Shown: piece by piece, positions 21,836 to 64,000 of the stretch | Position numbering within the stretch: the first letter of the stretch is position 1 | Layout of the letters: each line of letters begins with the position of its first letter | Origin: Rhodohalobacter mucosus | GTDB taxonomy: Bacteria > Bacteroidota > Rhodothermia > Balneolales > Balneolaceae | DNA: 64,000 bases | Direction of reading: 5' to 3' | Assembly (NCBI RefSeq): GCF_003150675.1 | Contig: NZ_QGGB01000007.1 | Coordinates: forward strand, 1-64,000 | Translations under genes and position numbers: made by a program | The notes under the pieces: generated by a model | What the model was told of the DNA's origin: nothing | The model's input: the letters and a program-made list of their open reading frames with translations, nothing else | Database searches by the model: none

Positions 21836-21901
21836 TTAGGAAATCTATTCTAATGTGTATAAATTGAAAAATAATACACATTGAAAGATTCCGGAGGTGG
21901 T

Positions 21902-22099
21902 ATGCGAACAAATATTGTAATAGACGATGAGTTGATGGAAGAGGCTTTGAGGGTGAGTCGCCTGAAAACGAAGAAAGAAGCTGTAGAAGCAGGTTTGAAG
22001 CTTCTGGTACAGCGAAAGAAGCAGGAAAATATCAGAAACTTGCGCGGCGCTCTGCACTGGACCGGCGACCTGGAGCAGATGAGGGTTAACGAAAAATGA
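21902..22099 (+). CDS. vapB: VapB-type antitoxin
   Basis: A 65-residue ribbon-helix-helix-type antitoxin (MRTNIVIDDELMEEALRVSR, then KTKKEAVEAGLKLLVQR). It should bind its own promoter through the N-terminal strand and inhibit the PIN toxin through its C-terminal tail. The ATG at 21902 is chosen because GGAGGTGG stands just before it; an earlier in-frame ATG has no ribosome site. It overlaps vapC by ATGA. Confidence 0.9.
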   Translation: MRTNIVIDDELMEEALRVSRLKTKKEAVEAGLKLLVQRKKQENIRNLRGALHWTGDLEQMRVNEK

Positions 22100-22491
22100 T
22101 CCTGGCAGATACCAGTGTCTGGATTGATTATTTCAACGGTGTTGAATCTTATCATACCGACAGCCTGGACATTGCTCTTTCTGAACAGACGGTCTTGATG
22201 GGCGACATCATACTCGCTGAAATTCTTCAGGGTTTTGACAGTGATTCTGAGTTCAAAAAGGCAAGGGATGCACTGAAGATACTCGAATGCGTCCGTCTCG
22301 GCGGAAAAGAACTGGCGATACAATCGGCATCAAATTTCCGGTTACTGCGATCAAGGGGTATCACCATCCGTAAAACAGTGGATATGATTATAGCCAGCTG
22401 GTGTATCGAGCACGGTGTGGAGTTAATGCACAATGACAAGGACTTTGACCGGATTGCTTCTGAATTGCCGCTTCTAGTATATACGCGTTGA
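22096..22491 (+). CDS. vapC: VapC-type PIN-domain ribonuclease toxin
   Basis: A 131-residue PIN domain. The acidic residues expected to bind Mg2+ are present: Asp5 in LADTSVWIDYF, Glu42 in ILAEILQG, and the aspartates in TVDMIIASW and HNDKDFDRIA. VapC toxins cleave tRNA or rRNA when the antitoxin is degraded. The target here is unknown. The pair sits as an island between two blocks of the same dispersed repeat. Confidence 0.92.
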   Translation: MILADTSVWIDYFNGVESYHTDSLDIALSEQTVLMGDIILAEILQGFDSDSEFKKARDALKILECVRLGGKELAIQSASNFRLLRSRGITIRKTVDMIIASWCIEHGVELMHNDKDFDRIASELPLLVYTR

Positions 22492-23920: not shown

Positions 23921-24056
23921 TCTTACCAAACAGTACAAGAGGGGGCAAAAACCCCCTTCTATTCCTCTCTAAAGCAAAAAAAACCTCAAAAACTAACATT
24001 GGTAAGCGAGCAGAAGTGATCAAAAGTGATTGCTTCGCACAGCTCAATTCCCAGTC

Positions 24057-24093
24057 TTGGTGTCCAAATTGGTGTCCAAATTGGTGTCCAATT
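24057..24093. repeat. Three direct 12-bp repeats between tRNA and integrase
   Basis: TTGGTGTCCAAA appears three times in tandem, the last copy ending in TT. Position and form suit arm-type binding sites for the neighbouring integrase. Read as protein they give CPNWCPNWCP, a reason not to start the integrase upstream of 24151. Confidence 0.6.
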
Positions 24094-24150
24094 TTTGAGG
24101 GTTTGGGAGCCACTCTAAACGAGAACTCTCAAATACGTTGGAGTGGAACT

Positions 24151-25326
24151 ATGGCATTTCTTACAAAACGTGGAAAGTACTATTACGTAAAATGGAATAC
24201 ATCTGAGAAGGGTAAAGTCAGAGAAGTCCGAAAATCGCTGGGAACTCGTCATAAAGATGTAGCTCAAAAAATGGTGACAGAACTGGAGAAGCTGGAATCG
24301 CTTGGGAAGATCGATCCATTTATACCCGGCTTTAATCCCAAACGAGCATTGACAGATGATAAGACTGAAAAGACGCTTCAATGCGCCACTGTTACGGATG
24401 CACTTAATCTATTCTATTCTGCTAAACAGCATTTATCTCCTGCGACAGTCGATGCATATAAACGGGCACTTGATCATTTTGTAGAACTAAACAGGCTGAA
24501 AATGGCAAGTCCAAAGAGCATTCGGCCACATCACTTTGAGAATGTAATCTTTAAACGTGGCATTACTGCAGCAACCAGACATTACTATTTTCGGCATTTC
24601 CGTTCTTGGTGGAAGTTCCTGAAAAAGAAAAAAGTAGTTGAAGCAGATATTTTTGACTCCCTGAAAGAAGATCTTCCACGCATTCGGGAAAATACCCGGC
24701 CAAAAATGATTTCGGAGCAAGAGTTGAAAACACTCTTCAAAACGTTCGATTCTGAACTGCAAAGAAAGAAAGCACTTTCGGAATTTGATCCGGAAAGAGT
24801 TCAGCATTGGTTCAAACCAATTGTGGCTTTGTACTTCTATGGTGGGTTACGAAAGCACGAAGCCGGTTACTCACCCTATTTAAAATATTCAGGATTAAAG
24901 GGTGAAAATTTGATTTTTGAGGACGGAGAACTGACTTACATATACCTGCCTCCCACAAAAGGTCGGAAAGAGCGCCAGATACCGATTATCAAAGAATTAA
25001 GAGTACAATTAGAACAGTACTTAAAGCTTCGTGGCAAATTAAATTCGAAGGACTTTGTGTTCGTGTATCAGGGAGGAACTTCTAATAATAAGCCGGTTCG
25101 AGGGGATCGTGTTTATCGTGAATTCAAACGCTACGCTAAGGTTGCCGGAATACCTACCACTCGTAGCTTACATGGGATGAGACACCAGGCGGTTACTACC
25201 TGGATTGAGAAAGGATTTCATACTGCAGAGGCAAGTTATATGGCGGGGCATTCGAGTCAAAAAGTGACAGAGAAGTATACGCATCTGACTGCGAAGAGAC
25301 TGAAGGAGAAGATGGAAAAGTTATAA
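24151..25326 (+). CDS. Phage-type tyrosine recombinase (integrase)
   Basis: 391 residues from the ATG at 24151. An arm-binding N-terminus (FLTKRGKYYYVKWNTSEKG) leads into a core-binding SAM-like domain at about 110-200. The catalytic domain has Arg in LYFYGGLRKHEAG, Lys in PTKGRKERQIP, HGMRHQAVT (His, Arg), the later His in MAGHSS and the nucleophile in EKYTHLT. The extra helix typical of integron IntI is not evident, so this is probably the integrase of the tRNA-targeted element, not the source of the cassettes downstream. The stop codon lies within the first attC core site. Confidence 0.9.
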   Translation: MAFLTKRGKYYYVKWNTSEKGKVREVRKSLGTRHKDVAQKMVTELEKLESLGKIDPFIPGFNPKRALTDDKTEKTLQCATVTDALNLFYSAKQHLSPATVDAYKRALDHFVELNRLKMASPKSIRPHHFENVIFKRGITAATRHYYFRHFRSWWKFLKKKKVVEADIFDSLKEDLPRIRENTRPKMISEQELKTLFKTFDSELQRKKALSEFDPERVQHWFKPIVALYFYGGLRKHEAGYSPYLKYSGLKGENLIFEDGELTYIYLPPTKGRKERQIPIIKELRVQLEQYLKLRGKLNSKDFVFVYQGGTSNNKPVRGDRVYREFKRYAKVAGIPTTRSLHGMRHQAVTTWIEKGFHTAEASYMAGHSSQKVTEKYTHLTAKRLKEKMEKL

Positions 25327-25411
25327 CGGTTTGGCATTTGTGCGGCGTGGCAAGATATTAAATGATTGGGCAACAATTCATTACACGACCGCACGAAATG
25401 CTTGTTATGCC
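25320..25411 (-). other. attC site 1 (DUF2971 cassette)
   Basis: Read on the minus strand: R'' GGCATAAC, L'' GCATTTCGTGCGG, loop, L' CCGCACAAATGC, R' GTTATAAC. The arms pair completely apart from one extra C in L''. R' overlaps the last codons of the integrase gene. Confidence 0.85.
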
Positions 25412-25425
25412 AAAAAAACAAGATT

Positions 25426-26301
25426 TTAGAGCTCGATATCTTCAAAAGTGAGACCATATTTTTCTTTTGACTTAATTGCACGTTTAATGACTGCATTGGA
25501 ATCAACTCTACTGAGCTCTTTTTTGAGTTTTTCAATATTTTCATCTTTTGCATTAAGTCCGATAATAACTTCTCCAACAGCATCTGCACCAAACGAATAA
25601 GGAGTATCTGGATGATTCCACATAATTAATCTAATTTCATTTTCATGTTTCCAATGTATTGATTTCGTGCAATGGACAGCTTCTGTTACATCAAAATTTT
25701 CATCTGTAGAATCACCATTAAGAGGAGTATCAATATTTACGTGTGGTATTTCATCAGTATATATAACATCGTGAAGTGCAAGCAGTATACCTTCCTCAGT
25801 CAATAATTGTTTTTGCTTTTCCGCTATGACTTCTGTTTTCAGTCCGATACAAATACCTTCATGATTTTCTGAATAGTAAGCCCACATTGGTAATGAATTC
25901 CAATCCCTAACCAATGATAAAATTCCAAACCTTTCATATTGTAATTCCAATAGTTCGGCAGCTGCAATTGTTGGATCCTTTCGGTGAATCATAGCCCTTT
26001 TCCAAGCGATACTTTCTAATTCTTTACGTTGCAATCGAGTTGCTGTAGAAAATCTTTGCTTGGTTTTTTTATGAATGTACTGCTTTAGTTCATCTTCAGG
26101 TAAACCAATAAAATTTGACTCAGGAATAAAGTAGTGCTCAAAAGGATCGTTAAGATGACGAGCACTTGAAAAGAATGCTTCACCCGTAGTTGCCATTTTT
26201 ATTCCGAAGTTATCTTCATCGAAAACTCTGTATTTGTATAATAATGACGGCATGTTATCTAAGTTTTCTTCAATTGGATTGTAGCTAATTCGTTTAGTCA
26301 C
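25426..26301 (-). CDS. DUF2971 family protein (cassette D)
   Basis: 291 residues from a GTG at 26301, or 275 from an ATG at 26253; neither has a good ribosome site, as is common in cassettes. LLYKYRVFDEDNF, NDPFEHYF, the WAYYSENHEGICIGL core and the C-terminal HWKHENEIRLIMW motif are characteristic of DUF2971, a family of unknown function often found in mobile and defence-associated loci. The gene fills its cassette and ends 15 bp before attC site 1. Confidence 0.8.
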   Translation of the reverse strand: MTKRISYNPIEENLDNMPSLLYKYRVFDEDNFGIKMATTGEAFFSSARHLNDPFEHYFIPESNFIGLPEDELKQYIHKKTKQRFSTATRLQRKELESIAWKRAMIHRKDPTIAAAELLELQYERFGILSLVRDWNSLPMWAYYSENHEGICIGLKTEVIAEKQKQLLTEEGILLALHDVIYTDEIPHVNIDTPLNGDSTDENFDVTEAVHCTKSIHWKHENEIRLIMWNHPDTPYSFGADAVGEVIIGLNAKDENIEKLKKELSRVDSNAVIKRAIKSKEKYGLTFEDIEL

Positions 26302-26330
26302 TTTTTAATTTCATTTAGTGGTTAGAATTT

Positions 26331-27047
26331 GGCATAACGACACAGCGTTTAAACGGCACGGGGATTATGATTTGGTTGAAGTAGCAAAATTAATTCCTGG
26401 CAATCAAGTTCCATCGCACCCCGTCCGCGTCCGATTTAAAACGCCTTGTGTGCGCCCGGCATAGGTGCCTTTGGCTTACAGGTATGTAAGCCAAAAATCT
26501 TGAGGGTGAAAGTCCATTATGAGTCCCGCTGGAGAGCGGGGAACCATTAGCAAGTCGCAAGGGCGTTGCCGGTAACCGCAAGTCTGAAATAAGCGAGACT
26601 GCAAGCTCTGGTGCTGATGAACAGGAACCGCATAAGAGGCTAAATGTATTGAACAAGTAAGCACATCATTGAAACGTCCGAAACACCTCGAGGTGAATGT
26701 TCATTATGTAGATGCGGCAGGCATTAGATGAAAGAAGGCATTCTTACTCGGGGAGATCCTGGCTGTTTATAGAGTCAGGAATTCGAAAAAAGTCGTATTA
26801 ATCCGGCACTGCCGGATGAAGGGCTGAACGTTGTTCTCTCAGAAATTGAATTGGAAGCAAGACTGCAAAACGGATAATTTACCGGCAGTCATGCAGTCCA
26901 ATGTGAAAGTATGAGATGGCTCCAACCAACGAAAAGAGCGGTTGGAGTGATGGATGACGAACCGCCTTATACGCGATCCGTACGTGCGGTGGTCTGAGAG
27001 GCGCACAATGAGTTTAATTGCTCACGGCCGTCTACTCGATTATACCC
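26331..27047 (-). other. attC site 2 (membrane-protein cassette), split by a group II intron
   Basis: Without the intron the site is 126 bp. On the minus strand: R'' GGGTATAAC, L'' GCGTTTTAAATCGG, L' CCGTGCCGTTTAAACGC, R' GTTATGCC. The intron separates TATACCC from ACAAGG in this strand's R'' core. The R'' box is not a perfect complement of the cassette's 5' core (GTTAACCC), which suggests drift after the intron landed. Confidence 0.75.
26450..27040 (+). ncRNA. ORF-less group II intron inserted in an attC core
   Basis: The 5' end is GTGCGCCCGGCATAGGTGCC, followed by AATCTTGAGGGTGAAAGTCC and a TAGCAAGTCGCAAG segment, the typical domain I sequence of bacterial group II introns. Domain V is at about 26956-26996 (ACCGCC stem, GTGCGGTGG return strand, then TGAGAGGCG). 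A domain VI hairpin and the 3' end CTACTCGAT follow. At 591 nt, domain IV has no reverse transcriptase/maturase frame. It lies on the strand opposite the cassette genes, and its exact removal restores CTTGT|TATACC. Splicing or mobility would need a maturase in trans. Confidence 0.85.
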
Positions 27048-27055
27048 AGACTTTA

Positions 27056-27415
27056 TTAAAATGAGTATTTAGAATATTTCATTGCTTCAGCCTCAATTTT
27101 TTTATTGTAATTCCGTACACCTATGATAGCCCAGATTATATTGATCAACCAATAAATTGCTGGTATTGAAATTCCTATTAAGTAAAACTCAAATAAGTAA
27201 TCAGCTGTCCAATCAAAGAAGTCATAATTTCCTTCAATTATGTTATCAAATAGGTAATAGTAGCTAATACCTATCAACGCAATTGGAAGGAATGTCATTA
27301 TAAATCCACCTAATACGGTTGAATAGAATAAACCGATAGGGCCGAACAGCAAAGTCAGAAGTATTGCTATTCCCGTACTTTTTGGAGACTTAGTAATAAT
27401 GTATGGTGTTGACAT
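27056..27415 (-). CDS. Small membrane protein (cassette C)
   Basis: 119 residues with hydrophobic stretches at about 15-30, 34-52 and 85-106 (TGIAILLTLLFGPIGLFYST; IYWLINIIWAIIGVRNYNKK). The N-terminal LLFGPIGLFYST resembles small TM2-like proteins, but I cannot name a family. It is AT-rich and fills its cassette, with 17 bp between its ATG and the attC site 3 core. Confidence 0.6.
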   Translation of the reverse strand: MSTPYIITKSPKSTGIAILLTLLFGPIGLFYSTVLGGFIMTFLPIALIGISYYYLFDNIIEGNYDFFDWTADYLFEFYLIGISIPAIYWLINIIWAIIGVRNYNKKIEAEAMKYSKYSF

Positions 27416-27431
27416 TACATTTAGATTCTAT

Positions 27432-27567
27432 GGGTTAACGGTTTGGCGTTTAACCGGCTTAGCCTATTTGGTTAGTAATGTAATTAAAACTGAAAACATC
27501 TTTTAGCCCACGAATATTGAAATAGCAAAAAGCGGCCATGTTCACGTTGAAACGCTGGTTATAGGGC
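27432..27567 (-). other. attC site 3 (PLDc_N/NERD cassette)
   Basis: On the minus strand: R'' GCCCTATAAC, L'' GCGTTTCAAC, a long loop of about 85 nt, L' GGTTAAACGCC, R' GTTAACCC. One extra C in L'' is the extrahelical base. Confidence 0.82.
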
Positions 27568-27659
27568 GCTGTGAGATGCGTTTAGAAATTATTTTCAAGC
27601 TTTAGATATGGTGTGTGCCTTACTCGATTCAATATTTTTAAAACATGAAAATTTCTGCA

Positions 27660-28418
27660 CTACTTTTTCTTTGTATATCTACATTCTGGAAAATTAGAAC
27701 AGCCAAAAAATTTTCCATGCTTGCCATTTTTTAAAACAAGTATCCCCCCACATTTGGGACAATATCTAGGAACTGAACTTTTTTTGCCCCATTTGGTAAT
27801 CCTCTTTACAAACTTCCTGTGCTTTTTTTTAATATCCTTTTTGTCGACAATTACTTGTTTAACGAGGTCGTCAATTCTTTCCAGTTGATTATGCGTTAAA
27901 TGAATTTCTTTATTTCTCCTGATTGTTCTTAAAATCTTACGTTTGTAAATGACGGGCACAGAAGATTTTATTTTTTTGAGTTTTCCAGATCCTGCAAAAA
28001 CAATAATTGGGAAATATTTCAAACCAGTAAAATCTGAAAATATCTGTTTGAGAAAATTAATGTGAGACCAGCTTTGAATAACTGGATTAAAAATTTTGTA
28101 TTTATTTTTGAAAAGCGTTTGAGTCCAATATTTGGAGTTCTCATTCCCAAATATCCACCCCTTATAGTTTTTTGTTTCAATTACAAATATTCCATAAACA
28201 GATATGATTAAATGGTCTATTTGTTTGCTTCTTCCCTTGTTTTTTAAGTAGATGTCATTATAAACTATATAATCATTTTTGTTAAGTCTTCGTAGCTTTC
28301 GTGCAACACTATATTCTCCTAATACGCCTTTGATTTTTGGCAAATATTTCTTTTTAAAAAGGACGCCAACTAAATAGAGAATAAAAACAAATACAATATA
28401 TGCTATACTTTCATCCAA
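27660..28418 (-). CDS. NERD-domain nuclease-like protein with zinc ribbon (cassette B)
   Basis: 252 residues. There is an N-terminal membrane segment (IAYIVFVFILYLVGVLF), then a NERD domain at about 30-150 (GEYSVARKLRRL, SKQIDHLIISVYGIFVIETK), a nuclease-related fold whose D-x-E/T-K residues are present. A topoisomerase-type C4 zinc ribbon closes the protein (CPKCGG, FFGCSNFPEC). The membrane tether plus zinc ribbon suggests nucleic-acid handling at the membrane. It shares a cassette with the PLDc_N protein, and both begin MDES. Confidence 0.82.
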   Translation of the reverse strand: MDESIAYIVFVFILYLVGVLFKKKYLPKIKGVLGEYSVARKLRRLNKNDYIVYNDIYLKNKGRSKQIDHLIISVYGIFVIETKNYKGWIFGNENSKYWTQTLFKNKYKIFNPVIQSWSHINFLKQIFSDFTGLKYFPIIVFAGSGKLKKIKSSVPVIYKRKILRTIRRNKEIHLTHNQLERIDDLVKQVIVDKKDIKKKHRKFVKRITKWGKKSSVPRYCPKCGGILVLKNGKHGKFFGCSNFPECRYTKKK

Positions 28419-28438
28419 AAATTATCTTTTAAAGTCAT

Positions 28439-28630
28439 TTAATTTTTCTTTTTAATAGGAGCGAGCAACAGATAAAAAATCCATGCAAACCAAGAAATGA
28501 AGAGCACAGCCAAAACCCAAGCTAACTTTTCGCTTCCCATAGTTTTTTTAGAAATGAGAATTGACATTAGAGGTATTAGCCAGACGATTGCTATGATTGT
28601 TAAGAATGCAAGAGCTACTGATTCGTCCAT
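28439..28630 (-). CDS. PLDc_N small membrane protein (cassette B)
   Basis: 63 residues with two hydrophobic segments and the ending FISWFAWIFYLLLAPIKKK, the pattern of the stand-alone PLDc_N domain. A role is not known. It is the first gene of its cassette, 20 bp before the NERD gene, so the two move together. Confidence 0.7.
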   Translation of the reverse strand: MDESVALAFLTIIAIVWLIPLMSILISKKTMGSEKLAWVLAVLFISWFAWIFYLLLAPIKKKN

Positions 28631-28698
28631 TTTATATCAAATTAATTCAATATAAATATTCATTTGGAGTGTAAAATCTCTTTAAGTGTGTATTAAAA

Positions 28699-28787
28699 GC
28701 CCTATAACGATGCGGCGTTTGTCCGGCGTGGCAATCAGCAAAGCCGTGAACAAGAATTGCTTAAACGACCGATACGCTTGTTAGCGG
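28699..28787 (-). other. attC site 4 (HsdR_N cassette)
   Basis: On the minus strand: R'' CCGCTAAC, L'' GCGTATCGGTCG, loop, L' CCGGACAAACGCC, R' GTTATAGGGC. The arms pair less tightly than in the other sites but keep the unpaired extra base on the L'' side. Confidence 0.78.
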
Positions 28788-28819
28788 TTAAGCCAATATT
28801 TATTTTTTACATAAAAAGT

Positions 28820-29926
28820 TTAATGAACCTTTGCTTTAATTCTACTTCTCAGCTGTGGTTCAGCAACTTCAAGAGCCAAGTCAATAATATCCTGAATATT
28901 TTTCCGACTGTAATTAGTACCAAGCCACCAGCCTGAGACTACTTCAACTGATTTTTCTTCTGCTAAATCAGGACGTCCCGGATAAAGTTCATATTTATCT
29001 CTTGCCAAATACCTTCTTTTCCTTCCATGCTTTCTCGAAGCAAATCTTTCAAGAAATGAATCATCTTCTTTTGCTAATAATTCAAATAGGGTGACCATTA
29101 CTTCACGAGCAGAACCTGCTGAAATTTCTTGATCCTTAAATGTTAAATTGTAGTCATCAACTTTTTGAGTTCGAAACTTTTTGGGTGACGGTTTACTATT
29201 TTTTGTAGATCGTTCTGATATGTTTCGAACAGTTTTCTTTTCAACTCTTGAAGTACCATGAGAATTTATTTGTTCATCAAAAAACTGACTACAAACATCC
29301 AAATCGGGCTTATAACCACATAAATCTTCTACTTTTTCAGCTAATAACTCTAATAATATTGAATCTTGTTCCTGAAGTATAGATTCCCATGCTTTAGGTA
29401 GATTATTTGCTATGACTCTAAACTTTGCGACATTTTGGTAATCAGATCGGGCTGATATTAATGCTTCTCCAGATGTAACATTCTGGTATTTTAAATATCG
29501 AACAAGTCGCTTTTCGATTTCATCAAGACTCCTTTCCAGCATATCTATTTTATAAACTCTTCTTTCATCATAGCGCCCTTGTTCACCTGGTAAGTAAAAA
29601 CTCCATTCTTGACCATCAGTTAAAATTGCCATCGGAACCCCAAGATGAAATGCATATTCAAATAATTGGCGGTCCGCTCCATCTGCTAACCCAACATTTT
29701 TTACTTCTATAAATACAGCCGGTTTATTTTTAGGATGACACAATGCATAATCAACTCTTCGATTTTCAACTGTAAATTCAGGAACTACAATTGACGTGTC
29801 AAATACGGGCCAGCCGAGTTCATTTAAAGCTGGCAAAAGAATACCTTGAGAAACAGATGCTTCTGAGGTAAATGATCCTTGACGTAACCCATTTTGCACT
29901 TTTTTTAAGTGATCAGATAGTCCCAT
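28820..29926 (-). CDS. HsdR N-terminal-type nuclease-domain protein (cassette A)
   Basis: 368 residues. Positions 15-130 resemble the PD-(D/E)XK domain found at the N-terminus of type I restriction subunits: E in SEASVSQGILLPAL, D in RRVDYALCHP, then FIEVKNVG as the E-x-K. The central linker is basic and Ser/Thr-rich. The C-terminus (residues about 280-360) has VVSGWWLGTNYSRKNIQDII, a small domain that often follows such nuclease domains. There is no motor and no methylase beside it, so it is not a restriction subunit in the usual sense. Confidence 0.78.
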   Translation of the reverse strand: MGLSDHLKKVQNGLRQGSFTSEASVSQGILLPALNELGWPVFDTSIVVPEFTVENRRVDYALCHPKNKPAVFIEVKNVGLADGADRQLFEYAFHLGVPMAILTDGQEWSFYLPGEQGRYDERRVYKIDMLERSLDEIEKRLVRYLKYQNVTSGEALISARSDYQNVAKFRVIANNLPKAWESILQEQDSILLELLAEKVEDLCGYKPDLDVCSQFFDEQINSHGTSRVEKKTVRNISERSTKNSKPSPKKFRTQKVDDYNLTFKDQEISAGSAREVMVTLFELLAKEDDSFLERFASRKHGRKRRYLARDKYELYPGRPDLAEEKSVEVVSGWWLGTNYSRKNIQDIIDLALEVAEPQLRSRIKAKVH

Positions 29927-29970
29927 GTTTTTGGATGAACTTAGTAAAAATTTGTGATCTTATTTTTTGA

Positions 29971-30015
29971 CCGCTAACGGCTTGGTAATTACGGCATATA
30001 AGTAATTAATTTACC
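29971..30015 (-). other. Cassette-array boundary: half attC-like site
   Basis: CCGCTAACGG then CTTGGTAATTAC matches the R'-L' half of attC sites 1 and 3 (TAACGG, TTGG). The core GTTAGCGG (minus strand) is the 5' edge of cassette A. The rest of a site is not clear: GTAATTAATTTACC could be a short L'' arm. This may be a decayed fifth attC belonging to the ankyrin gene to its right. Confidence 0.5.
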
Positions 30016-38745: not shown

Positions 38746-41700
38746 TCAATTAAGAATGCCCCTGCCGTCTATGTTTACGTTAGCGATGATGTAGACATCA
38801 CCGTACTTATACACCGGTCGCTTTCCCGAATCGAAGTAGTGGAAGTAATGGTTATCCTTGCCTTTTTCGTCATCGGCGTAGATTACCTTGTCACTTACAT
38901 ACAGGATTCGGTCGGCGTGACCGGCACTGAGTAGTTTCTCGCCCGAAGACGGAAACAGCTCATAGTCGTAGTCATCGGCTGGGAAATGGTGAAACTCTTC
39001 AAACATCTCAGCCGCTTTGTCGTCGTCGTATGCTCCCTTGGAGAGCTTCATTAAACGGGTTGGAAATACAAATATGGTGGTTCCGTCTGCATCAATGATC
39101 ATAGCAAGATCATCCCGTTCGGCCTGGATTCGCTCCATCATGCCACCCTCATCGATGATTTCCAGTTCTTTGACGATCCCGGAGTAGACCAGCGGTTTTT
39201 CGTAAAGAATTTTGAGCAGAGCCGGTCGATTTTTGGGTTTTGGTCGCTTACCTGCTCCACCGGAGGAGTTCTCCCGTAAGGTTCCTTTTGAACCGGATTC
39301 CCCTTTTAAGGCTCCAACATCACGAACCGTGATAGCCTTTTTGATTTTGTACGTGGGAGCGATTCGATTGATCTCTTCATAAAGTTCATTTCGGTCGGAA
39401 TAGCTTACCGCTACCAGCTCATTGACGACATCATTAAGCTGGATCACGGTTTTTTGGTTGGCATCGAGATCCGTTTTGGCCGCGAGGAGTTCCTGCCGAG
39501 TAGATGTCAATACCCGTCCAAGCTCGGCCAGTGTCTTTTCGGTTTGGGTGACCTCGGCGCGTAACAGCTCCAAACGACTCTTGGATGTTCGTTGCCAGGC
39601 TCGTTCCAAGGCAAGGAATAGTTCAGCAAGCTTACGGGTGATAATCGGCTGCCATTTTGATATCGTGAACATACCCAGAGATTGTTTGATCTCTTTAAAG
39701 CTTCTATCATCCCCGGACTCGTTTGTTATTGCCTTCTCCGCCTGGATATCTACCCCGTACTCACGATAGAAGTCCTGCTCGGTGGCGATGATATTTCCAA
39801 GGTTTCCTGAGATGGAGCGTCCATTGCCGGTTGGCTCGTCCAGCGTCCACCCGAAGGTCTCGCCGAGTTCTTCTTTTGCCATCCGTTTGATTGAACCCCA
39901 GTTCGCCTTATTGTAGAAAGCTCTGTCAGGCATATTGCTGTCAGGAATCAGATGAAACCACACCCGGCCATTTTGGTTATTTTCCGGCACGTCAAGCTCT
40001 GCCTTCATACGGAAACTGGAAATTCGCTTCGCGTCAGATGACAACTCAACATCGATCTGATACGGTTCTCCATTCCATCCGAACTGCAACTGGAAAAGGT
40101 TTTGCTGGGTGGCCTGCTTCGCACTTGCCGGAAGGTGGGAGGCTTGCAGGGCTTTTTCTCGCTCAACTACCGACTGCATCTTTTCCTGCTTCGAAGTGAT
40201 ATCATGGGTGGCTTGCTTCTGGCTGGACTCTAACCGTTGCACTTCAGATTCCAGATTCCCGATCCGGTCTTCAAGCAGGTTCTTTTGCGCCAGGGCCTGG
40301 AAGAACTGTTTTACCCGTGGATCGGAGTTGGTTGCAGCTACCATCTGTTCGTATTCCAGTGATTCACTGTCTCCATCGTTAACGGTTTCTCTGGCGTTGC
40401 CAAAGAACAGATCATCAATCCAGCTCTGTTTCTTTGATACCAGTTCCAGGCGATATTGATCAAAGGAGTCCTGCATCAGATAGTAGTGGATAGTCACTTT
40501 CGGGTACTGATTTCCCTGGCGAAGTCCACGGCCATTTCGCTGCTGAATCTGTGAAGGTGTATAGGGTACATCCATGTGGTGTATATCGGTAGTCCACTTT
40601 TGCAGGTTCATGCCCTCTGCAATGGACTGATTACCAATCACCACCCGGTATTTACCCTGGTTAAAATCATCCTGCACGTCTTTCTTCAGAGCTTCTTTAT
40701 CGTCCTTGCTGCTTACCGAATAATCGGAGCCATCTTTATTGGTACCAATGATTGCGCCATTAATGATTGCAATCTGATCTTTTGGAATCCCGGCCTTCAC
40801 CAATTCAGATTTGATGAGCTGATGGAAACTTCCCCCCTGAGACTGATGGAGGCTTATCCAGTCGCAGAATATGATCTGGTTGCGGATAGCCGGACCAGTT
40901 GGATTTGATCGGCTTGCCTTGATCTTTTTCCACTGATCATTGAGCTTCTGAGCACGCTCTTTTGCCTCTTTTTCACTGCCATAAATTCCTTCATCCCATG
41001 TATGTTCAGGCTTCTTATCCTGCAAAATGTGTAGGGGTTCATACATCTCCTTTTTGCTATCCCATACCACCCAATAGCCGGATTTTTCCTTAACCACACC
41101 CTTGCTGGTAATCACCTCTATATGAGAAGGATTTGATCTCATGTGTGGGGGCGTGGCTGCATGTCGCTGCCTGCCGTGGCGATTGAAGTAATCTCCGTAC
41201 ATATCCTCCGGCTGAATAGTCGGTGCCGGATTGGATCGTGCCTGATACGAACTGGCTACGGAGTCCACCAATGCGCCAAGCTTCAGGTAAGTTCGATCAA
41301 TCCCTTCAAAATCCTTGTCATAAACTCGTAGATCCGTAGCAATCTTGCTGCCGTCTCCGGTAATGACCAGGAAATTATCCCTGGTTTCGCACTGCCGGTC
41401 TTTCATGCAGGCCAGCACATCATTGGCACGAAGGATGATATCATCAAAGAGAAGCTTGTGAAGTTCACTTGGCTCAATGACCACATTTCGGGAATTAGCT
41501 TTTGGCCGTTTGAATTTCGGCTCCAGTACTTTGGGCTGGCCGTCCGATCCCTTCACCGGTTTGCCGTCACTGCCCAGAATGTAATCTGGGTACTCTTTGT
41601 AGAAGCCAATCAGCTGATCATAGCTCTTGATGTCCATCACCTCATCGATGATCTTCCGCATTTCAGGCAAATTGTAATATCCGGCCACCACTCGTTCAGA

Positions 41701-44700
41701 TCGGTATTCACCATTGGTCTTCTTAACGATCTTCTCTTCCTCCCGGACAAACAGATTGATGAAGTTATCCAGATTTTCGATTTCGTACTCTTTGAGCAGA
41801 TCAGGTGCACAAAGGTTAAGCATGTGCCATACTTCCACCGGGGAATTCACAACGGGGGTTGCCGTCAGTACAAATACATTCTTGTACCCAATCTTACTAA
41901 ACAGCCATCGGGTTTTCTGAAGAGCATCTTCAGCTCGTTGAGAGGGTTTATTCGCAGAGATACCCAGTTTAGCCGCTTTCGCTGAACCGAGTGCATTTTT
42001 ATAGAAGTGAGCCTCATCAAAAAACAGGCAGTCCACACCCAGCTCGTCAAAAAAGATATCCGTTTCGAGACGTTTGGCATGGGCCACATTACGTAGCTTG
42101 GTTTCCCACTCTTCCATCTGCTTTTCCAGGCGCTTCATCATCGAGGTTTTTGCCTGTTTTGATATCGCCTGGTCTTCATCCAGCAGCTCCTCAAAGTTTT
42201 CAAGCATCTGATTGAAGTATTCGATGCGCTGCTGGTAAATCCGGGCCTGCTCGGAGGGGGAGAGTGGAAGAGATTTGAACGCATGATCTGCAATGAAAAT
42301 GGCATCCCAGTTGTAGAGCTGCGCCATGGTCAGCTCTTTATGCTTGCTGTCCGATGTCATTTTCATGTTCAGAACTTTTGCGTCGGGGAACAGCATCATA
42401 TACTCTTCCACCCACTTCTCCTGAACTTTCCCCGGCACCACAAACATGGGCTTTCGCGCGGCTCCCTGTTGGAGCAGCACCTGCGAGGTAATGATTGAGG
42501 CGAGGGTTTTACCGGCTCCCACATCGTGGCAGTTGGCACCTTTACCGTTCCAGACCAGTTTTTCAGCGATAGCCCGATTGTGTTTGTACACGGTAAAATC
42601 TTTCACCCCGTAAAAGGTATCACTCATTCCACGAACACGTAGAGTACGGCCGTCAAATGGTGGATTCACCACAGCATTGTAGGTGTTGTTGTAGGCCGAT
42701 TCGATGAGTTGCCGAATTTCAGTGGAGGCTTTCGTCCGTACCCAGTTATTGAACTTTTTAGGCACATGCGTCAGCATCCGGTTGTTATTCTGCCTCTGAA
42801 TTTTCCGTGCCCGCTCAATAAGAATCTGCCCTTTATCACCGGACATGGACAATGCTTGCTTCAGCGTCATGTTTGGAAGCAGCTCGTCATTTTCATCGTA
42901 GAATTTCAGTGGAAACGTACTGTCCTGGATGTAGGAGTTGATGATTTTGGTGAAGGGTGTCTCACCCCAGCCAAGATTCCAGTCATCATTGGTTTCATCG
43001 CCACCGGAAACATACCGGCCCCACTTTCGGAGCTTCATGTAGAACCGGTTGCCCAGATCCGCTTTATCCTTAACGAGGCCAATCTCCACCTTGTCGTAGT
43101 TCATCTCATCTTTGATCCACTCCTCTATAGCTTTGGCTGGCAGATAGGTGAAAATGTGTTGTGGATCGACTGTGATATTGTAGATATCGATCCACTCCGG
43201 AACCACCTCTTCAAGTGCAGTGATGTTCTTTTCCAGCTCGTTTTCACGGGCAATGGCCAGTTTTGAGCGAACGTTTCCGGCCAGATACTCATAGCGGAAT
43301 TCGTGGCGCGCCGACTCCGGGTTCCAGTAAAAATCAGGATGTGATTCCAGAGCTTCCAAGAGTTCATCTTTTGTAGCCGTGCCACCTTTGTACACCGACT
43401 GGAAGAAACTGGTATCGAGCGACTCACCAATCGACCGGCCAAACATGGCCAGCTCTGCCAGATCCCCAGAATCACCGATGGAGGGTACATAGTTACGGTT
43501 GAACATGGAATCGGCGTCGATGATATCGGCATAGACCAGCTCGCCATTCACCGGATCACGTTTCACCAGGGTAGTCAGTTTGTAGAGCCGGTTGTCGTAT
43601 TTGAAAACAGAACGAATATCTTCGTCTTCATCGGGGACGCCAAACAAATCCATATGGCCGGAGAGCAGCTCTTTAAACTCTGCCCGAAGCGCATCCTTTT
43701 CGGAGGTTTCCCGTGCCAATGCTGTAACGTAATCATCGTATTTATCCAGTAGCCGACAAGCTGACCCTATGCGGTTTTTAAGCCCTTCACTTTTACCGGA
43801 TAACGGAAGAGCCTTGAAATACCTGCGCTGTTTTTCATAGAAGGTGCCCTCATGCAGAACAATATTCCCCGGATGATACTCCCGGCGAATATCCAGCATG
43901 ATCCCGTCATCGGGTATATTATAGAGTGGCATTTCTTCGGGGAGTGGATAAGCAAAGGCCATCTCATCCGATAGAGCTTTTGAAATGACAGAATCCGTTA
44001 ATTGTCCCTTCACACCCATACGGGAAAAGAACTGCACGTTATGTCCCTGAATATGGTCACCCAATACTTTTTCAGGGTACTCCTTGTAATAGGGGTTGTA
44101 GGTGGCCCGGTAAGTTTCGCCGTTATACTCATGTGTACGTTCAATCAGATCATCATAGACAAAGAGCCGGTTCAGTGGGCTATCTACATCCGGGTGAACC
44201 TCACCGGAATGATCGCCATACTTTTGGAAGAACAGAATATCGGTCGTAACAGACGTATCAGCATTATCCTTGAAGGCCGAAGATGGAAGACGATATGCGC
44301 CAATGAATCGCCCGCGTTGAACCATTGCCTGACGAATGGCCGGATCTTTTTTATCCATCGTACCTGTGGAGGTGATTACGGCCATGAATCCACCCGGTGT
44401 AAGAGAGTCCAGGGATTTCAAAATAAAATAGTCGTGAATCCTTGGGCTAAGGGGTGCAAGCGGATCTCGCTGGGTATGAATCTTCAAATCGCCAAACGGC
44501 ACATTCCCTACAACTCCGGTTAGGTTGTAGATGGACAAATCACTGTCGGCAAAGTTTTCATGGCGAACGGTCTGCCGGGGATAGAGCAACCGTGCAATCC
44601 GTGAGCTGATCGCTGATCGTTCAACCATAACCATTCGGTAGGTATCCCGGTCTGGCAGAAAGCCTGCAAAATTTCCAACTCCGGCTCCAGGCTCTAAAAC

Positions 44701-46320
44701 ATTTCCGCCTGTTGCGCCCATCTTTTGAAGTTTATCCCAAATGAACTGTACTACCGAGTAGGAGGTGTAGTGTTCATTGAGCAGGCCACGTTTTCCACTT
44801 GCCTGTTCATCACTGTATCCAAGTCCACCGGCACCGGTATATTTTCGCAGTACATCAATATCGGCTTTGGTGATGGCCCGATCCTCTTTCTGCAAAACCT
44901 CAATGGCCTGTTCATTGGCCTTTCGACGCTCGGAGGCCGTCATTTTGATCGGCTGATAGTTTTTCAGCTCGACGTCCGAAAATCCGCTTTCAAATTTCGA
45001 TTCTCCCGTTCGATCTCCTTTACCTTCATAGGATGGGCTGCCTGTTTTTTCCGGTTTTTGAGCCTCTTGGAACAGATTGTCAAAATCTACACCAATAATA
45101 GAACCGTGATTTCTGAACAGTTCCAGGGCTTCCTTGCGATGCTCTTTTGGAAACTTATCCAGTGAAAATGCAAGGGCAAGTTTCTTCACGGTTTCACCAA
45201 ATGCATCCTGAAGCTCCTTCACTTCATCGGAAGGGTTTTTCCGAATCGTTAAGTCTTCCTGGAGTCGGTCGAGATCGGTTAAGTATGGTTCCAGTGCTTC
45301 GGCTGCTTTAATATCTCCTTTGTCTGCTTTCCAAGCCAGATCTGTCAGCTCCAAAAGCAGTTCACCATTCAGATTCCCATTCTTGTACGGGTAGTGGGAA
45401 GCCGCAGAGATCATCGACATTCGCTTGGTCTTGATCTGGATCTCTACCGGGGTGGCCTCGTCTACAACAATGATAAAATGGTGGGCGCGGTAGCCGTCCG
45501 CAGGATGGGCATACTTATCTTCATGTTCCCATACGGTTCCAAGCTCTCCATCCAGAATTCGTTGTACTATGGCTTCGACTTGCTTTTGAGAGTCGAGCAC
45601 TGCCATACAACCGGCAATATCTGTCAGTCCGGTCGTGTAGGTTTCTCCCGGTTGGTCGGCAACCTTTACCGTGAATGGGAATCGTTTGCGGATCAGTTTT
45701 CCCAGGGTAGAGTACATGGTCTTGATCCGGCCTTTCACCAATAGCGGCAATCCGGTATCTATCAGCTTTTGCATGACGGATTTCAATGCAGGCAGGTAAG
45801 CGTTTTTCTGCTTGATCAGTGCTTTGATTTGTGGCGTCAATTCGGCGCTGTCAATCGGCAACGTATCGCCCGGAACCAGTGGGTTGGGATCGTCAATATT
45901 CGCAATCCCATCTCCATCCCAATCGCCTAACCAGTGATCAAAGTCATCCTGATGAATCTCTTGAAGATCATCGATATTTGTTTTTACCTGGGCTGGATTT
46001 TTACGACCTCTCTTTAAATCTTGTTCAATCTTATCGACAACCGCTAATGCTTTTCGAAGTATGCCCACTTCATCGAGATGCCACAGATCGTGTTCATCAT
46101 AAAAGGTTTCTTTCTCATAGAGGTTCATCTCTCCATCGATCATGCCCATGACCGCTTCTGCGAAAGCAACTTCCTCGTCCTGATGATATCCTTCGTAACG
46201 ATCCTGGAGGGAATCGGGATACCCCATCAAACGATCCTGAAGCTCATCATAAAGCCTGTCGATATCACCCGCGGATGAATTCTGTCTTAGGTTTGAGGAT
46301 TTCGTTTTCATCTGCGACAT
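38746..46320 (-). CDS. Giant polyvalent protein: RelA/SpoT-like, N6-adenine methylase and SNF2-type helicase
   Basis: 2,524 residues. There is a DxDGDGIxNxDD calcium loop at 133-144. A RelA/SpoT synthetase-like domain at 190-315 has RIKTMYSTLGK at 198-208, Asp234 in TDIAG, GYRAHH at 276-281, EIQIKT at 293-298 and a HYPYK end. An N6A methylase covers about 490-700 (VLEPGAGVGNF at 541-551; NVPF at 606-609). A superfamily II motor follows: HDVGAGKT at 1265-1271, DEAH at 1435-1438, LTATPV at 1485-1490 and QQRNGRGLRQG at 1926-1936. A long C-terminus follows. Phage P1 DarB, a virion-delivered antirestriction protein, joins a methylase and such a motor, and 'polyvalent proteins' of phages are built this way. 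Delivery in the particle is inference. Confidence 0.82.
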   Translation of the reverse strand: MSQMKTKSSNLRQNSSAGDIDRLYDELQDRLMGYPDSLQDRYEGYHQDEEVAFAEAVMGMIDGEMNLYEKETFYDEHDLWHLDEVGILRKALAVVDKIEQDLKRGRKNPAQVKTNIDDLQEIHQDDFDHWLGDWDGDGIANIDDPNPLVPGDTLPIDSAELTPQIKALIKQKNAYLPALKSVMQKLIDTGLPLLVKGRIKTMYSTLGKLIRKRFPFTVKVADQPGETYTTGLTDIAGCMAVLDSQKQVEAIVQRILDGELGTVWEHEDKYAHPADGYRAHHFIIVVDEATPVEIQIKTKRMSMISAASHYPYKNGNLNGELLLELTDLAWKADKGDIKAAEALEPYLTDLDRLQEDLTIRKNPSDEVKELQDAFGETVKKLALAFSLDKFPKEHRKEALELFRNHGSIIGVDFDNLFQEAQKPEKTGSPSYEGKGDRTGESKFESGFSDVELKNYQPIKMTASERRKANEQAIEVLQKEDRAITKADIDVLRKYTGAGGLGYSDEQASGKRGLLNEHYTSYSVVQFIWDKLQKMGATGGNVLEPGAGVGNFAGFLPDRDTYRMVMVERSAISSRIARLLYPRQTVRHENFADSDLSIYNLTGVVGNVPFGDLKIHTQRDPLAPLSPRIHDYFILKSLDSLTPGGFMAVITSTGTMDKKDPAIRQAMVQRGRFIGAYRLPSSAFKDNADTSVTTDILFFQKYGDHSGEVHPDVDSPLNRLFVYDDLIERTHEYNGETYRATYNPYYKEYPEKVLGDHIQGHNVQFFSRMGVKGQLTDSVISKALSDEMAFAYPLPEEMPLYNIPDDGIMLDIRREYHPGNIVLHEGTFYEKQRRYFKALPLSGKSEGLKNRIGSACRLLDKYDDYVTALARETSEKDALRAEFKELLSGHMDLFGVPDEDEDIRSVFKYDNRLYKLTTLVKRDPVNGELVYADIIDADSMFNRNYVPSIGDSGDLAELAMFGRSIGESLDTSFFQSVYKGGTATKDELLEALESHPDFYWNPESARHEFRYEYLAGNVRSKLAIARENELEKNITALEEVVPEWIDIYNITVDPQHIFTYLPAKAIEEWIKDEMNYDKVEIGLVKDKADLGNRFYMKLRKWGRYVSGGDETNDDWNLGWGETPFTKIINSYIQDSTFPLKFYDENDELLPNMTLKQALSMSGDKGQILIERARKIQRQNNNRMLTHVPKKFNNWVRTKASTEIRQLIESAYNNTYNAVVNPPFDGRTLRVRGMSDTFYGVKDFTVYKHNRAIAEKLVWNGKGANCHDVGAGKTLASIITSQVLLQQGAARKPMFVVPGKVQEKWVEEYMMLFPDAKVLNMKMTSDSKHKELTMAQLYNWDAIFIADHAFKSLPLSPSEQARIYQQRIEYFNQMLENFEELLDEDQAISKQAKTSMMKRLEKQMEEWETKLRNVAHAKRLETDIFFDELGVDCLFFDEAHFYKNALGSAKAAKLGISANKPSQRAEDALQKTRWLFSKIGYKNVFVLTATPVVNSPVEVWHMLNLCAPDLLKEYEIENLDNFINLFVREEEKIVKKTNGEYRSERVVAGYYNLPEMRKIIDEVMDIKSYDQLIGFYKEYPDYILGSDGKPVKGSDGQPKVLEPKFKRPKANSRNVVIEPSELHKLLFDDIILRANDVLACMKDRQCETRDNFLVITGDGSKIATDLRVYDKDFEGIDRTYLKLGALVDSVASSYQARSNPAPTIQPEDMYGDYFNRHGRQRHAATPPHMRSNPSHIEVITSKGVVKEKSGYWVVWDSKKEMYEPLHILQDKKPEHTWDEGIYGSEKEAKERAQKLNDQWKKIKASRSNPTGPAIRNQIIFCDWISLHQSQGGSFHQLIKSELVKAGIPKDQIAIINGAIIGTNKDGSDYSVSSKDDKEALKKDVQDDFNQGKYRVVIGNQSIAEGMNLQKWTTDIHHMDVPYTPSQIQQRNGRGLRQGNQYPKVTIHYYLMQDSFDQYRLELVSKKQSWIDDLFFGNARETVNDGDSESLEYEQMVAATNSDPRVKQFFQALAQKNLLEDRIGNLESEVQRLESSQKQATHDITSKQEKMQSVVEREKALQASHLPASAKQATQQNLFQLQFGWNGEPYQIDVELSSDAKRISSFRMKAELDVPENNQNGRVWFHLIPDSNMPDRAFYNKANWGSIKRMAKEELGETFGWTLDEPTGNGRSISGNLGNIIATEQDFYREYGVDIQAEKAITNESGDDRSFKEIKQSLGMFTISKWQPIITRKLAELFLALERAWQRTSKSRLELLRAEVTQTEKTLAELGRVLTSTRQELLAAKTDLDANQKTVIQLNDVVNELVAVSYSDRNELYEEINRIAPTYKIKKAITVRDVGALKGESGSKGTLRENSSGGAGKRPKPKNRPALLKILYEKPLVYSGIVKELEIIDEGGMMERIQAERDDLAMIIDADGTTIFVFPTRLMKLSKGAYDDDKAAEMFEEFHHFPADDYDYELFPSSGEKLLSAGHADRILYVSDKVIYADDEKGKDNHYFHYFDSGKRPVYKYGDVYIIANVNIDGRGILN

Positions 46321-52977: not shown

Positions 52978-53364
52978 CTGTGATTGAGTTTTCGTTCAAA
53001 CACAGATTAGGGGCAAAAATACTGGCTTACAATGCTCTAAAGGCTGGTTGGTTGGATATGGATAACAAAAAAATTAACCAGAATTTAGAGGCTATTAAAT
53101 GAGTAAAACGGTTTTATATGTTCTCCTGCAAGGATATGAGTAAAATGGAAGAAACTTTACTTTTTTGAGCGGAATGATCTACATTATTGCTGTTTGCTTG
53201 AACCGTTAAGAAACAATCGGATACGATTTTTATGATTTTATCTTGAAATCATCGGTTTACTTTAAATTTTTTTGAGAGTACCTGCTAGTGTTCTTCTATT
53301 ATATCTAATACGGAGTTTGACATATAAGAGATAACTAGTAATTAATTTGACGCACGAATATTGT
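52978..53364. other. Spacer between the virus-like operon and the defence operon
   Basis: 387 bp, AT-rich, no gene seen in either strand. On the minus strand TATTTTTG at 53021-53014 fits the Bacteroidota -7 pattern TAnnTTTG, but no clear TTG -33 box stands at the right distance. It probably holds the promoter of the long operon. No tRNA-like attachment repeat was seen here. Confidence 0.4.
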
Positions 53365-54837
53365 CTATTTTTTAAGAATATGAATCATTGATTCAATTGA
53401 TTCTTCAAGCTCTTTAGAACTAAATGTGCTCACCTGCATAATTGTATTCTCTGGATGGTGAATTTTATTTCTTATAAATACAGGTAAGGTACACATGTAT
53501 TTTGCGCCAGGATTTCCATTTTGCTCACGTTGCCATTGTTTTGAATTCTTCAAACCTTGCTCCTCAAAGAAGTCATCTATCTCTTTTTCTTTAAACTTTT
53601 CATGTTTCTCTTGGATAAATCCATACAATTCATTGTGAAACTCAACTGTTGGGTAATTATAGGCTTTGTAATTGATTTCACCCCATGAGGGACTCCAGGG
53701 AAATAAACCAGAATCAGGTTGCATTTTTTGGATCACTAATTCATCACCATCCTCAAATGATGTAACAAAGGTTTTAACACCTGTCTTATTAAACGTATTC
53801 TTGTAAAAGATTGGTGAGTGAGTTGAGATGAAAATTTGATGATTATTACTCTCCTGCGAAAGGCTCAATAAATAGTCAGCTAATTTTTCCTGTAATTTAG
53901 GATGAAGGTGCAATTCAGGTTCATCAATTAGAATAAGTAGTTTTTCTTTCGAAAAGGAAGCCAAGGTTTCAAGAAATAATAATGATATAATCATTTCAAA
54001 TCCTGATCCTAAATCTTTAACTGGCAGATCAAGAGTACCTTTTTTTGAAGAAAAAAATGCCGAATCATAGGGTGCTACTGAATCAAATATTGACATATCT
54101 ATTTCAGCAATATCAAATTTATTTAGTTTCTCTCTTAATAATCTAACCAACTCCAAATCCTCAACCTCTGAATATTTATGTATTTCATTTGTAAGCTCTT
54201 GGATTTTTTCTTGAATTGTCTGAGAGTCAGGATCTTTTCGAACATATCTATTATACCGCCAGTTTAAATCCTCAACCACATTAGAAAACGAAGAGTTAAA
54301 TCCTTTAGTGAGTTGACGGTTTCTATCTTTTCCAAAATAGAATGTTCGAGGTAGGTCTTCCGTAGATATATTGGATAATGTTAAAGATCTTTCTGAAAAT
54401 TTAAAATCTGAGCCACTTTTCCTTTTAATTTTCCAACCTTTTCCATTTTCTTCTCTTTCAAATGCAGGACCAACGAGATGAGTAACAACATATGGGTCAG
54501 ACAATACTTTCCCTGCTTTCTTTTGGTCTCTTTTCTTGACCTCTAAATATAACTTATCGCACTCAATTTCTTGAGTAGTATAACCATCTGGAAGTTCAAC
54601 CTTCAGATTTTCAATAAATTTTATAAACACAGAAAATGAATCAACTGATCCACCTTTAAAGTCGGTATGTTTAATCCTATTAGCTAAAAAGTATGGTGAA
54701 AATGCATGATTTAAAGCTTCAATTATACTTGTTTTGGAGGTCCCATTATCTCCAATCAATATGTTATAATCACCAACATTTAAATCACTAATTTTTCCTA
54801 TACCCCTAAAGTTTGATATCGAAAATTTCTCTATCAT
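53365..54837 (-). CDS. AAA ATPase (OLD/RecF-like), last gene of the RM operon
   Basis: 490 residues of the overcoming-lysogenization-defect-like AAA_15/21 type: Walker A IGDNGTSKTS at 28-37, signature region DLGSGFEMIISLLFLE, and LILIDEPELHLHPK near 300. No Toprim domain is apparent. The C-terminal part has FIRNKIHHPENT near 455, an R-N-x2-H-H motif that could be a HEPN-type ribonuclease site (inference). It lies 27 bp after res and belongs to the defence operon. Confidence 0.72.
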   Translation of the reverse strand: MIEKFSISNFRGIGKISDLNVGDYNILIGDNGTSKTSIIEALNHAFSPYFLANRIKHTDFKGGSVDSFSVFIKFIENLKVELPDGYTTQEIECDKLYLEVKKRDQKKAGKVLSDPYVVTHLVGPAFEREENGKGWKIKRKSGSDFKFSERSLTLSNISTEDLPRTFYFGKDRNRQLTKGFNSSFSNVVEDLNWRYNRYVRKDPDSQTIQEKIQELTNEIHKYSEVEDLELVRLLREKLNKFDIAEIDMSIFDSVAPYDSAFFSSKKGTLDLPVKDLGSGFEMIISLLFLETLASFSKEKLLILIDEPELHLHPKLQEKLADYLLSLSQESNNHQIFISTHSPIFYKNTFNKTGVKTFVTSFEDGDELVIQKMQPDSGLFPWSPSWGEINYKAYNYPTVEFHNELYGFIQEKHEKFKEKEIDDFFEEQGLKNSKQWQREQNGNPGAKYMCTLPVFIRNKIHHPENTIMQVSTFSSKELEESIESMIHILKK

Positions 54838-54863
54838 TTGCCCCGTTTCATTCTTTAGTACTA

Positions 54864-57845: not shown

Positions 57846-57846
57846 A

Positions 57847-59715: not shown

Positions 59716-60467
59716 AATTGTTTTGCTATCTGCTTAAGTTGTTTTTCCAGTTCCTTAATATCCACATTCAACTTCACTTTTTCATTGAATGCTTCTTCTT
59801 TCTTTAATTTCACTTTAAGGGCTTCAATTTGCTCTTCCAAATCCCGGTGTTCATTCAGGGCTTTTATTCTTTGCTGCTTTTTACTTTGCTCGTCCAGCAT
59901 TTCAAAATTACCGGTTACACTGGCGACTTTATAAGCAGTAAAAGCATCTATCCAGCCTTTATAGAATACCTTAAGGTTTAACCTTGGCTGTTTATCATAG
60001 GCTAATTGTTCTACAAAAGCCCGATCGGAATTTGCCTTTAAATTCTCATCAATCTGTTCGGTAACCCAATACTCTTCAATAGTAGCCGCCTGATTATCTG
60101 CCAAATTAAAGCGTTTATCAGCTACTGATAAGCGAACCCACTGTTTCCCCTTAAATACAATCATCATAGGGTATGGAATTGCCCGGTGTATTATATCTGT
60201 CAATCGGTTCACATGATGGTCATTCTCCAAGTCAACTTCAATCACCGCTATTTCATCATAATGAAAATGTTCTTCTTTCACCGGAAATATCAGTGTAACA
60301 GTTGGCTTTATAGAATATTTCCACCTTATATGATTAATATCTTTAGTAAACCACTTCTTATCGGTTACACTGAACTTTGCGTTCTCATAAAACAGTTTTT
60401 TATATACTGGCTTGTCCAGTCTGCACTTCTCCGGCAGTTTCAGATATGTATAGGGAAATTCATCCAT
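59712..60467 (-). CDS. DUF4391 domain protein
   Basis: 251 residues. The DUF4391 region is 1-200 (KPTVTLIFPVKEEHFHYDEI, PMMIVFKGKQWVRLSVADKR). The last 50 residues form a coiled coil (EEQIEALKVKLKKEEAFNEK). DUF4391 genes commonly stand beside type III Mod and a SNF2 helicase, as here, but the role is not established. It overlaps the helicase stop by TAATG. Confidence 0.85.
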   Translation of the reverse strand: MDEFPYTYLKLPEKCRLDKPVYKKLFYENAKFSVTDKKWFTKDINHIRWKYSIKPTVTLIFPVKEEHFHYDEIAVIEVDLENDHHVNRLTDIIHRAIPYPMMIVFKGKQWVRLSVADKRFNLADNQAATIEEYWVTEQIDENLKANSDRAFVEQLAYDKQPRLNLKVFYKGWIDAFTAYKVASVTGNFEMLDEQSKKQQRIKALNEHRDLEEQIEALKVKLKKEEAFNEKVKLNVDIKELEKQLKQIAKQL

Positions 60468-63676: not shown

Positions 63677-64000
63677 TTATTAATTAACTTCTTTGCTAAT
63701 TTATACTCCCGATCAAACGGCACCTTCTCTATCCGAAATAATAATTTGGCAATGCAATCGCTCAACTTACGTAATAATAGGTAAATACTATTTAGTCACA
63801 TAAACTAATTCTCTTAATAGATAGTATATGGTACCTGTTTTTTGGTAATCGTTTCAAGTTATATCTACTCGAACAATTTCTATTGCATTTTTTTAATTCT
63901 TAGTGTGGAATATCCGAAATGTACTGTAATGTGCTCACCGAGTACGTGAATACCGCTTGGCTGACATCATGTCGTTATGAAACATCCATCAAATTTGTCA
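63677..64000. other. Right-end spacer, upstream of the defence operon
   Basis: 324 bp, AT-rich, with no gene seen. It should hold the minus-strand promoter for the helicase-mod-res operon. No repeat of the tRNA 3' end is visible. Confidence 0.5.

Follow-up and report, generated by a model that had tools for sequence, protein, structure and literature searches.

We describe an array of four attC sites, with its cassettes, in the DNA of Rhodohalobacter mucosus. The stretch analysed, referred to as the window, comprises positions 1-64000 of contig C7; the genome amounts to 3.9 Mb in 17 contigs and is 97% complete. With a probability of roughly 0.7, the array is a cluster of attC sites without an integron integrase (CALIN) in a cargo slot of a provirus that is integrated at tRNA-Met and resembles Salisaeta icosahedral phage 1 (SSIP-1). 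Its cassettes would have been inserted by an integron integrase (IntI) and carried by the phage, and a group II intron sits in one of the sites, attC B. This reading is carried by direct observations: the attC sites, the limits of the provirus, an IntI elsewhere in the genome, a cassette that a second provirus shares exactly to its edges, and the presence of other genes in the corresponding slot of R. halophilus.

Covariance scoring of the sites, which a preliminary description of this DNA had proposed as a check, was performed with two attC models of our own rather than with that of IntegronFinder. Model R1 was trained on only six attC sites, taken from the IntI-bearing region of contig C2 of the same genome; these were aligned, and one attC structure was drawn by hand on their sequences. 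Model R2 was built from 112 aligned matches from 49 sources, some of them repeated via overlapping loci, and its training set excludes the window and the surveyed provirus contigs. The four minus-strand sites of the preliminary description were all recovered in place by the C2-trained R1, and none was rejected by either model:

25317-25412, minus strand: attC A, the last of the array (R1 60.8 bits, R2 77.2 bits)
26331-27048, minus strand: attC B, split by an intron into 26331-26449 and 27041-27048 (R2 42.9 bits)
27429-27566, minus strand: attC C (R1 37.9 bits, R2 47.7 bits)
28698-28788, minus strand: attC D (R1 30.5 bits, R2 35.9 bits)

The R''-L''-L'-R' structure was recognised by R1 and R2 in all four, and the part of attC B up to the intron edge scored 30.3 bits with R1 (match 26330-26455). 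Over 117 kb, R1 returned these four sites and seven on C2, six of the latter being its training sites; beyond attC A-D, no further match was seen in the window at E ≤ 10. A hand-made attC finder was rejected, as known sites were missed and its single match lay inside a gene.

If the four sites were ordinary intergenic hairpins or terminators, flaws in the L'' arms and modest scores would be expected, and both are found in B, C and D (30-38 bits with R1). The extra-base L'' arms described previously are clean in attC A, whereas those of B, C and D show small insertions or deletions by eye. Nevertheless, the structure used for training gave pairing in 102 of 102 cells and a covariation score higher than in all 500 shuffles; its count of further pair types was equalled in 74 of 500. 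R1 returned no match at E ≤ 1 in 608 kb from the first 34 related loci, which included one side only of the SSIP-1 gp47-like gene of a related genome (G023) and so lacked the array of that genome, and 13 such matches in a wider 1.18 Mb, from five other proviruses. Moreover, as had been noticed before, R'' is complementary to the 5' edge of its own cassette in three of the four cassettes. The exact runs measure 9, 10 and 11 nt, compared with 4-6 nt against the edges of other cassettes. On the evidence of sequence, hairpins are thus refuted, and we assign them next to no probability.

The cassettes of the array contain the following features:

25426-26301, minus strand: DUF2971 gene (Pfam), listed by PADLOC as phage-defence candidate PDC-S31
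27056-27415, minus strand: gene for 119 amino acids without a Pfam match
27660-28418, minus strand: gene with a NERD nuclease-related domain and a topoisomerase-type zinc ribbon (Pfam)
28439-28630, minus strand: small membrane-like open reading frame (ORF) of 63 amino acids in the cassette of the NERD gene
28820-29926, minus strand: HSDR_N-like gene (Pfam)
29971-29996, minus strand: 5' edge of the first cassette; judged by eye, its upstream bases are like those of an attC 3' half

Some of these genes look like defence genes, and at a guess a lysogen might gain protection from them.

The gene adjoining attC A encodes the integrase of the provirus:

24016-25326, plus strand: tyrosine integrase of the phage type (Pfam Phage_integrase, 5.1e-18)

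This protein reached 20.6 bits with the IntI model TIGR02249, the cut-off of which is 265, and is therefore not an IntI. It is 92% identical to the integrase of Rhodohalobacter halophilus JZ3C29, and its stop codon falls within the R' box of attC A. As first proposed, the array is a CALIN: it has four attC sites but lacks an adjacent integron integrase, the definition demanding at least two attC sites and no nearby intI. The accompanying statement that intI is absent holds near the array but not genome-wide: the search for intI and related attC sites that had been suggested found both on C2, where a true IntI (432 bits, the only match of the genome above the cut-off) is accompanied by an attC array. 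Genome-wide, with scoring of 150 of the 497 first-look candidates, at least 25 sites matched R1 at E ≤ 1. At least 23 matches had at least 30 bits, nine of them on C8, seven on C2, four on C7, two on C3 and one on C5. The C8 array extends to the contig end, and sites on C2, C5 and C3 likewise lie within a few hundred bases of contig ends; thus, the resident integron was probably broken in assembly. Between two of the C2 attC sites (L008, 13472-14900), a SMODS nucleotidyltransferase gene and a SLATT_4 effector gene form a pair like that of a cyclic oligonucleotide-based antiphage signaling system (CBASS).

A single element of 46 kb, flanked by two copies of tRNA-Met, comprises the integrase, the array and the phage genes:

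23845-23919, plus strand: tRNA-Met, left end of the provirus
31579-53105, minus strand: provirus core common to R. halophilus, with SSIP-1-like structural, ATPase, transglycosylase and giant-protein genes
53105-64000, minus strand, continuing to about 64493 on the contig: second cargo slot
69772-69846 of the contig, beyond the window: right copy of tRNA-Met

The preliminary description had the array abutting a tRNA-targeted integrase. The two do adjoin, and because both are enclosed with the phage genes in a single element bounded by tRNA-Met, their adjacency is not due to chance. The presence of other attC arrays in the genome would suit an array that is chromosomal and has a phage integrase next to it by coincidence. 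However, the tRNA-Met copies enclose the phage core as well as the array. In addition, R. halophilus harbors a collinear element between tRNA-Met copies (integrase block 87%, four core blocks 87-93%) in which core and integrase are joined around another cargo, TrkA and TrkH occupying the place of the array. A chromosomal array is thereby largely refuted and very improbable, and from the position of TrkA and TrkH it is deduced that the CALIN occupies a cargo slot of a phage. The second cargo slot, to which nothing in R. halophilus aligned, contains an AAA ATPase, a type III restriction enzyme with its methyltransferase, DUF4391 and a helicase matching HKD and Snf2 models.

The relationship to SSIP-1 was evident from profile searches. 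Twelve of the 83 ORFs of the element with at least 80 codons matched SSIP-1, 11 of them at E ≤ 4.1e-7 and collinear with that phage; the twelfth match, beyond the window, is weak (9.5e-4). Among the matches are the transglycosylase (1.5e-45), the gp40 ATPase (1e-42), gp45 (5.1e-30), gp47 (1.2e-26) and the giant gp43 (2.1e-15). By single-sequence search, gp47 was seen only at E 0.07. The fold predicted without an alignment for the gp47-like protein of 270 amino acids was poor (mean predicted local distance difference test score, pLDDT, 36.5), and scans of IMG/VR with the integrase and two structural proteins gave no relative. The counterpart of gp43 (38746-46320) is 2524 amino acids long and matches RelA/SpoT, a helicase and, weakly, a methyltransferase. 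Past the right tRNA-Met (about 10030-10200 of L016), decayed remains resembling a second integrase were seen by eye, which suggests tandem integration. To the left of the provirus (21881-22491) lies a gene pair for a VapB antitoxin and a PIN-domain protein.

The sharing of a cassette was observed among related genomes, of which 146 were sampled, the window's own genome included. In G023, from the same genus, the HSDR_N cassette gene is 93% identical to that of the window. The provirus around it extends from a tRNA-Arg to an exact 47-bp repeat; compared with the window, the integrase is 59% and the gp47-like protein 29% identical. Four attC sites (50.5, 43.9, 39.5 and 25.2 bits) were found there, each preceded by a gene in the same orientation. 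The shared cassette, 1284 nt long, is 90.9% identical to window positions 28699-29975 by blastn. Outside this cassette, blastn aligned only two stretches of attC (86% and 77%) and two of the integrase (65% and 71%) between the two proviruses. The resemblance of the shared cassette begins and breaks off at its edges, the upstream DNA and the next cassette being different. R1 sites were seen only in the G023 locus among eight loci of relatives with either of two cassette genes that were searched.

This bears on the possibility that the provirus acquired its array as one block from a chromosomal integron, through homologous or illegitimate recombination, instead of cassette by cassette via IntI. 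Such a route was raised for phages by Qi et al. (section 3.4 of PMC9892861), and both the half attC seen by eye at the right end and the presence of four cassettes together would agree with it. Against it, the sequence in common with G023 stops at both cassette edges and has different neighbors in the two proviruses, and no chromosomal source array was seen in a search that covered two cassette genes only. We regard uptake as a block as unlikely.

The intron of attC B had been overlooked:

26450-27040, plus strand: group II intron of 591 nt without an ORF (Rfam RF02001, 83.7 bits)

The class is indicated by the Rfam match only as D1-D4 type 3, and the RNA folds better than 100 of 100 shuffles. 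Group IIC-attC introns, according to the passages of PMC7923331 drawn on here, have the target TTGT/T and an orientation opposite to the cassettes. The window intron is like them, with its target TTGT|T within attC B and an orientation opposite to the cassette genes. It is unlike them in that it has no ORF, the longest open stretch in all frames being 74 codons, and in that no GIIM, maturase or group II reverse-transcriptase match was found in the genome (PF08388 and TIGR04416, E ≤ 0.001). Judged from these sequence features, attC B is probably disabled by an inserted intron of the IIC-attC kind. Intron-like matches, many of them fragments, occur in at least 16 of the 146 genomes, the window's own included and at most four candidates per genome being scored. 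An R1 site reaches the 5' end of the intron in six of 19 other fetched loci (L164, L165, L176, L177, L179 and L180). A full-length relative in G008 (79%) likewise sits at TTGT|T. In G045, 194 nt comprising a stretch of attC and the beginning of the intron are 80% identical to the window, and the intron position is the same. In a metagenome-assembled genome (GSL.Bin13; L075, 10145-10176), a 32-nt match to the intron 3' end is found a short distance beyond a related tRNA-Met integrase, which would fit an intron having once occupied the same place. The array of the preliminary description is confirmed, but the intron, the intI elsewhere in the genome and the enclosing provirus had escaped it.

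The 270-amino-acid gp47-like gene gave 24 matches in 19 of the 146 genomes. DNA was fetched around all 24 loci, several of which end at contig ends, and most of it was scanned with R1. R2 at E ≤ 1 detected 18 sites in six of the 24 loci: four each in the window, G023:C2 and G081:C5, three in G081:C1, two in G078:C2 and one in G033:C3. Five loci have at least two sites, some of them weak. The G081:C5 provirus is bounded by a 45-bp repeat and contains its four sites. For the G078:C2, G033:C3 and G081:C1 proviruses, no exact repeat of at least 18 nt was found at the far end, and their sites are taken as internal from their position between an integrase gene and the gp47-like gene. The sites of G081:C1 scored 30.4, 23.4 and 20.3 bits, the two weak ones being located between consecutive genes of the same direction. 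Six of ten cassette proteins from G023, G078 and G081:C1 have Pfam matches (HSDR_N, DUF4145 twice, once below the cut-off, DUF6602, TIR with TPR, and HEPN), and four have none. In the 19 genomes with a gp47-like gene, 12 of 166 attC matches lie in the proviruses, which were taken to make up about 1.4% of the DNA. The resulting enrichment of about fivefold is probably too high, as genome totals are lower bounds; a provirus length of 42 kb was assumed and sites cluster, and the figure is not relied on.

Several points weigh against insertion by IntI and carriage by the phage. In the other 18 of the 24 SSIP-1-like loci, R2 found no attC, and the sites of G081:C5 are oriented against the neighboring ORFs. 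The own-edge test failed for the third cassette, whose site B, with the intron flanks joined, matches its edge over 4 nt by eye. What looks like half an attC at the right end implies that part of the array perhaps arrived as a block or was trimmed. Each of the two cassette genes searched occurs as a single copy in the genome, in the window, and so the resident array is not seen as their source. The search for IntI covered the window's own genome only, and the loading of the provirus with cassettes and their transfer are proposed here from sequence alone.

We nevertheless favor insertion of the cassettes by IntI into a phage-borne slot, which could have proceeded as follows. The IntI of the present or an earlier host would excise cassettes as circles, and the attC of the circles would be recombined by IntI with secondary, attG-like sites in the proviral DNA. 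Here, insertion would have occurred at the 3' end of the gene for the phage integrase, and that gene now terminates within an attC, in its R' box. Infection by the phage would then bring the cassettes into further hosts and within reach of an IntI resident there, which could mobilize them again; attC B would have been entered by a group II intron of the IIC-attC type. From Loot et al. 2024, IntI is said to place cassettes outside integrons at non-classical attG sites; unlike insertion of that kind, the target here would be a provirus, and the site is a candidate. The gene comparisons suggest that SSIP-1-like phages may ferry integron cassettes between hosts. A wider proposal, which we make tentatively and consider somewhat doubtful, is that SSIP-1-like proviruses of Balneolaceae are regular cassette carriers, with host integrases loading them, phages spreading them and cassettes passing among unrelated proviruses and integrons. 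If such carriage is regular, a common pool of genes, some of them defensive, would be drawn on by this virus lineage and by integrons alike. For the movement of cassettes from one sedentary chromosomal integron to another, an array-carrying phage lineage and a shared cassette provide a concrete, testable route.

Cassettes had been called little described in this group of bacteria. No report was found on integrons in Rhodohalobacter, or on Balneol- with attC, in a literature search outside of which most subscription journals lay; the sites themselves are common, with R1 matches at E ≤ 0.01 in at least 92 of the 146 related genomes (23 candidates scored per genome). The same search, with the same limit, gave no report on integrons in membrane-containing or tailless phages among the matches listed.

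SSIP-1 is a membrane-containing phage with two types of major capsid protein, according to the passages of PMC6356626 drawn on here, and gp45 and gp47 are structural proteins in its record (NC_017983). The window element is like SSIP-1 in possessing homologues of gp34, gp43, gp44, gp45, gp47, gp48, the ATPase gp40 and the transglycosylase in the same order. It is unlike SSIP-1 in being a provirus with cargo slots that is known from its genes alone, whereas the SSIP-1 genome has no attC by R2. Phage-borne CALINs and integrons were described by Qi et al. (2023, PMC9892861) as attC arrays without intI, some with putative counter-defence methyltransferases. As far as the passages drawn on extend, five of six tested sites recombine with IntI1, and 17 CALINs are reported, most of them in the supplement. 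The window array is like these in being an attC array without intI in phage DNA. No phage is called SSIP-1-like in those passages, and the word 'tailless' is absent from the paper. Thus, phage-borne integron parts were already known; compared with those passages, what seems new is the repeated loading of one tailless-phage lineage, here with several arrays, and one cassette common to two distant proviruses.

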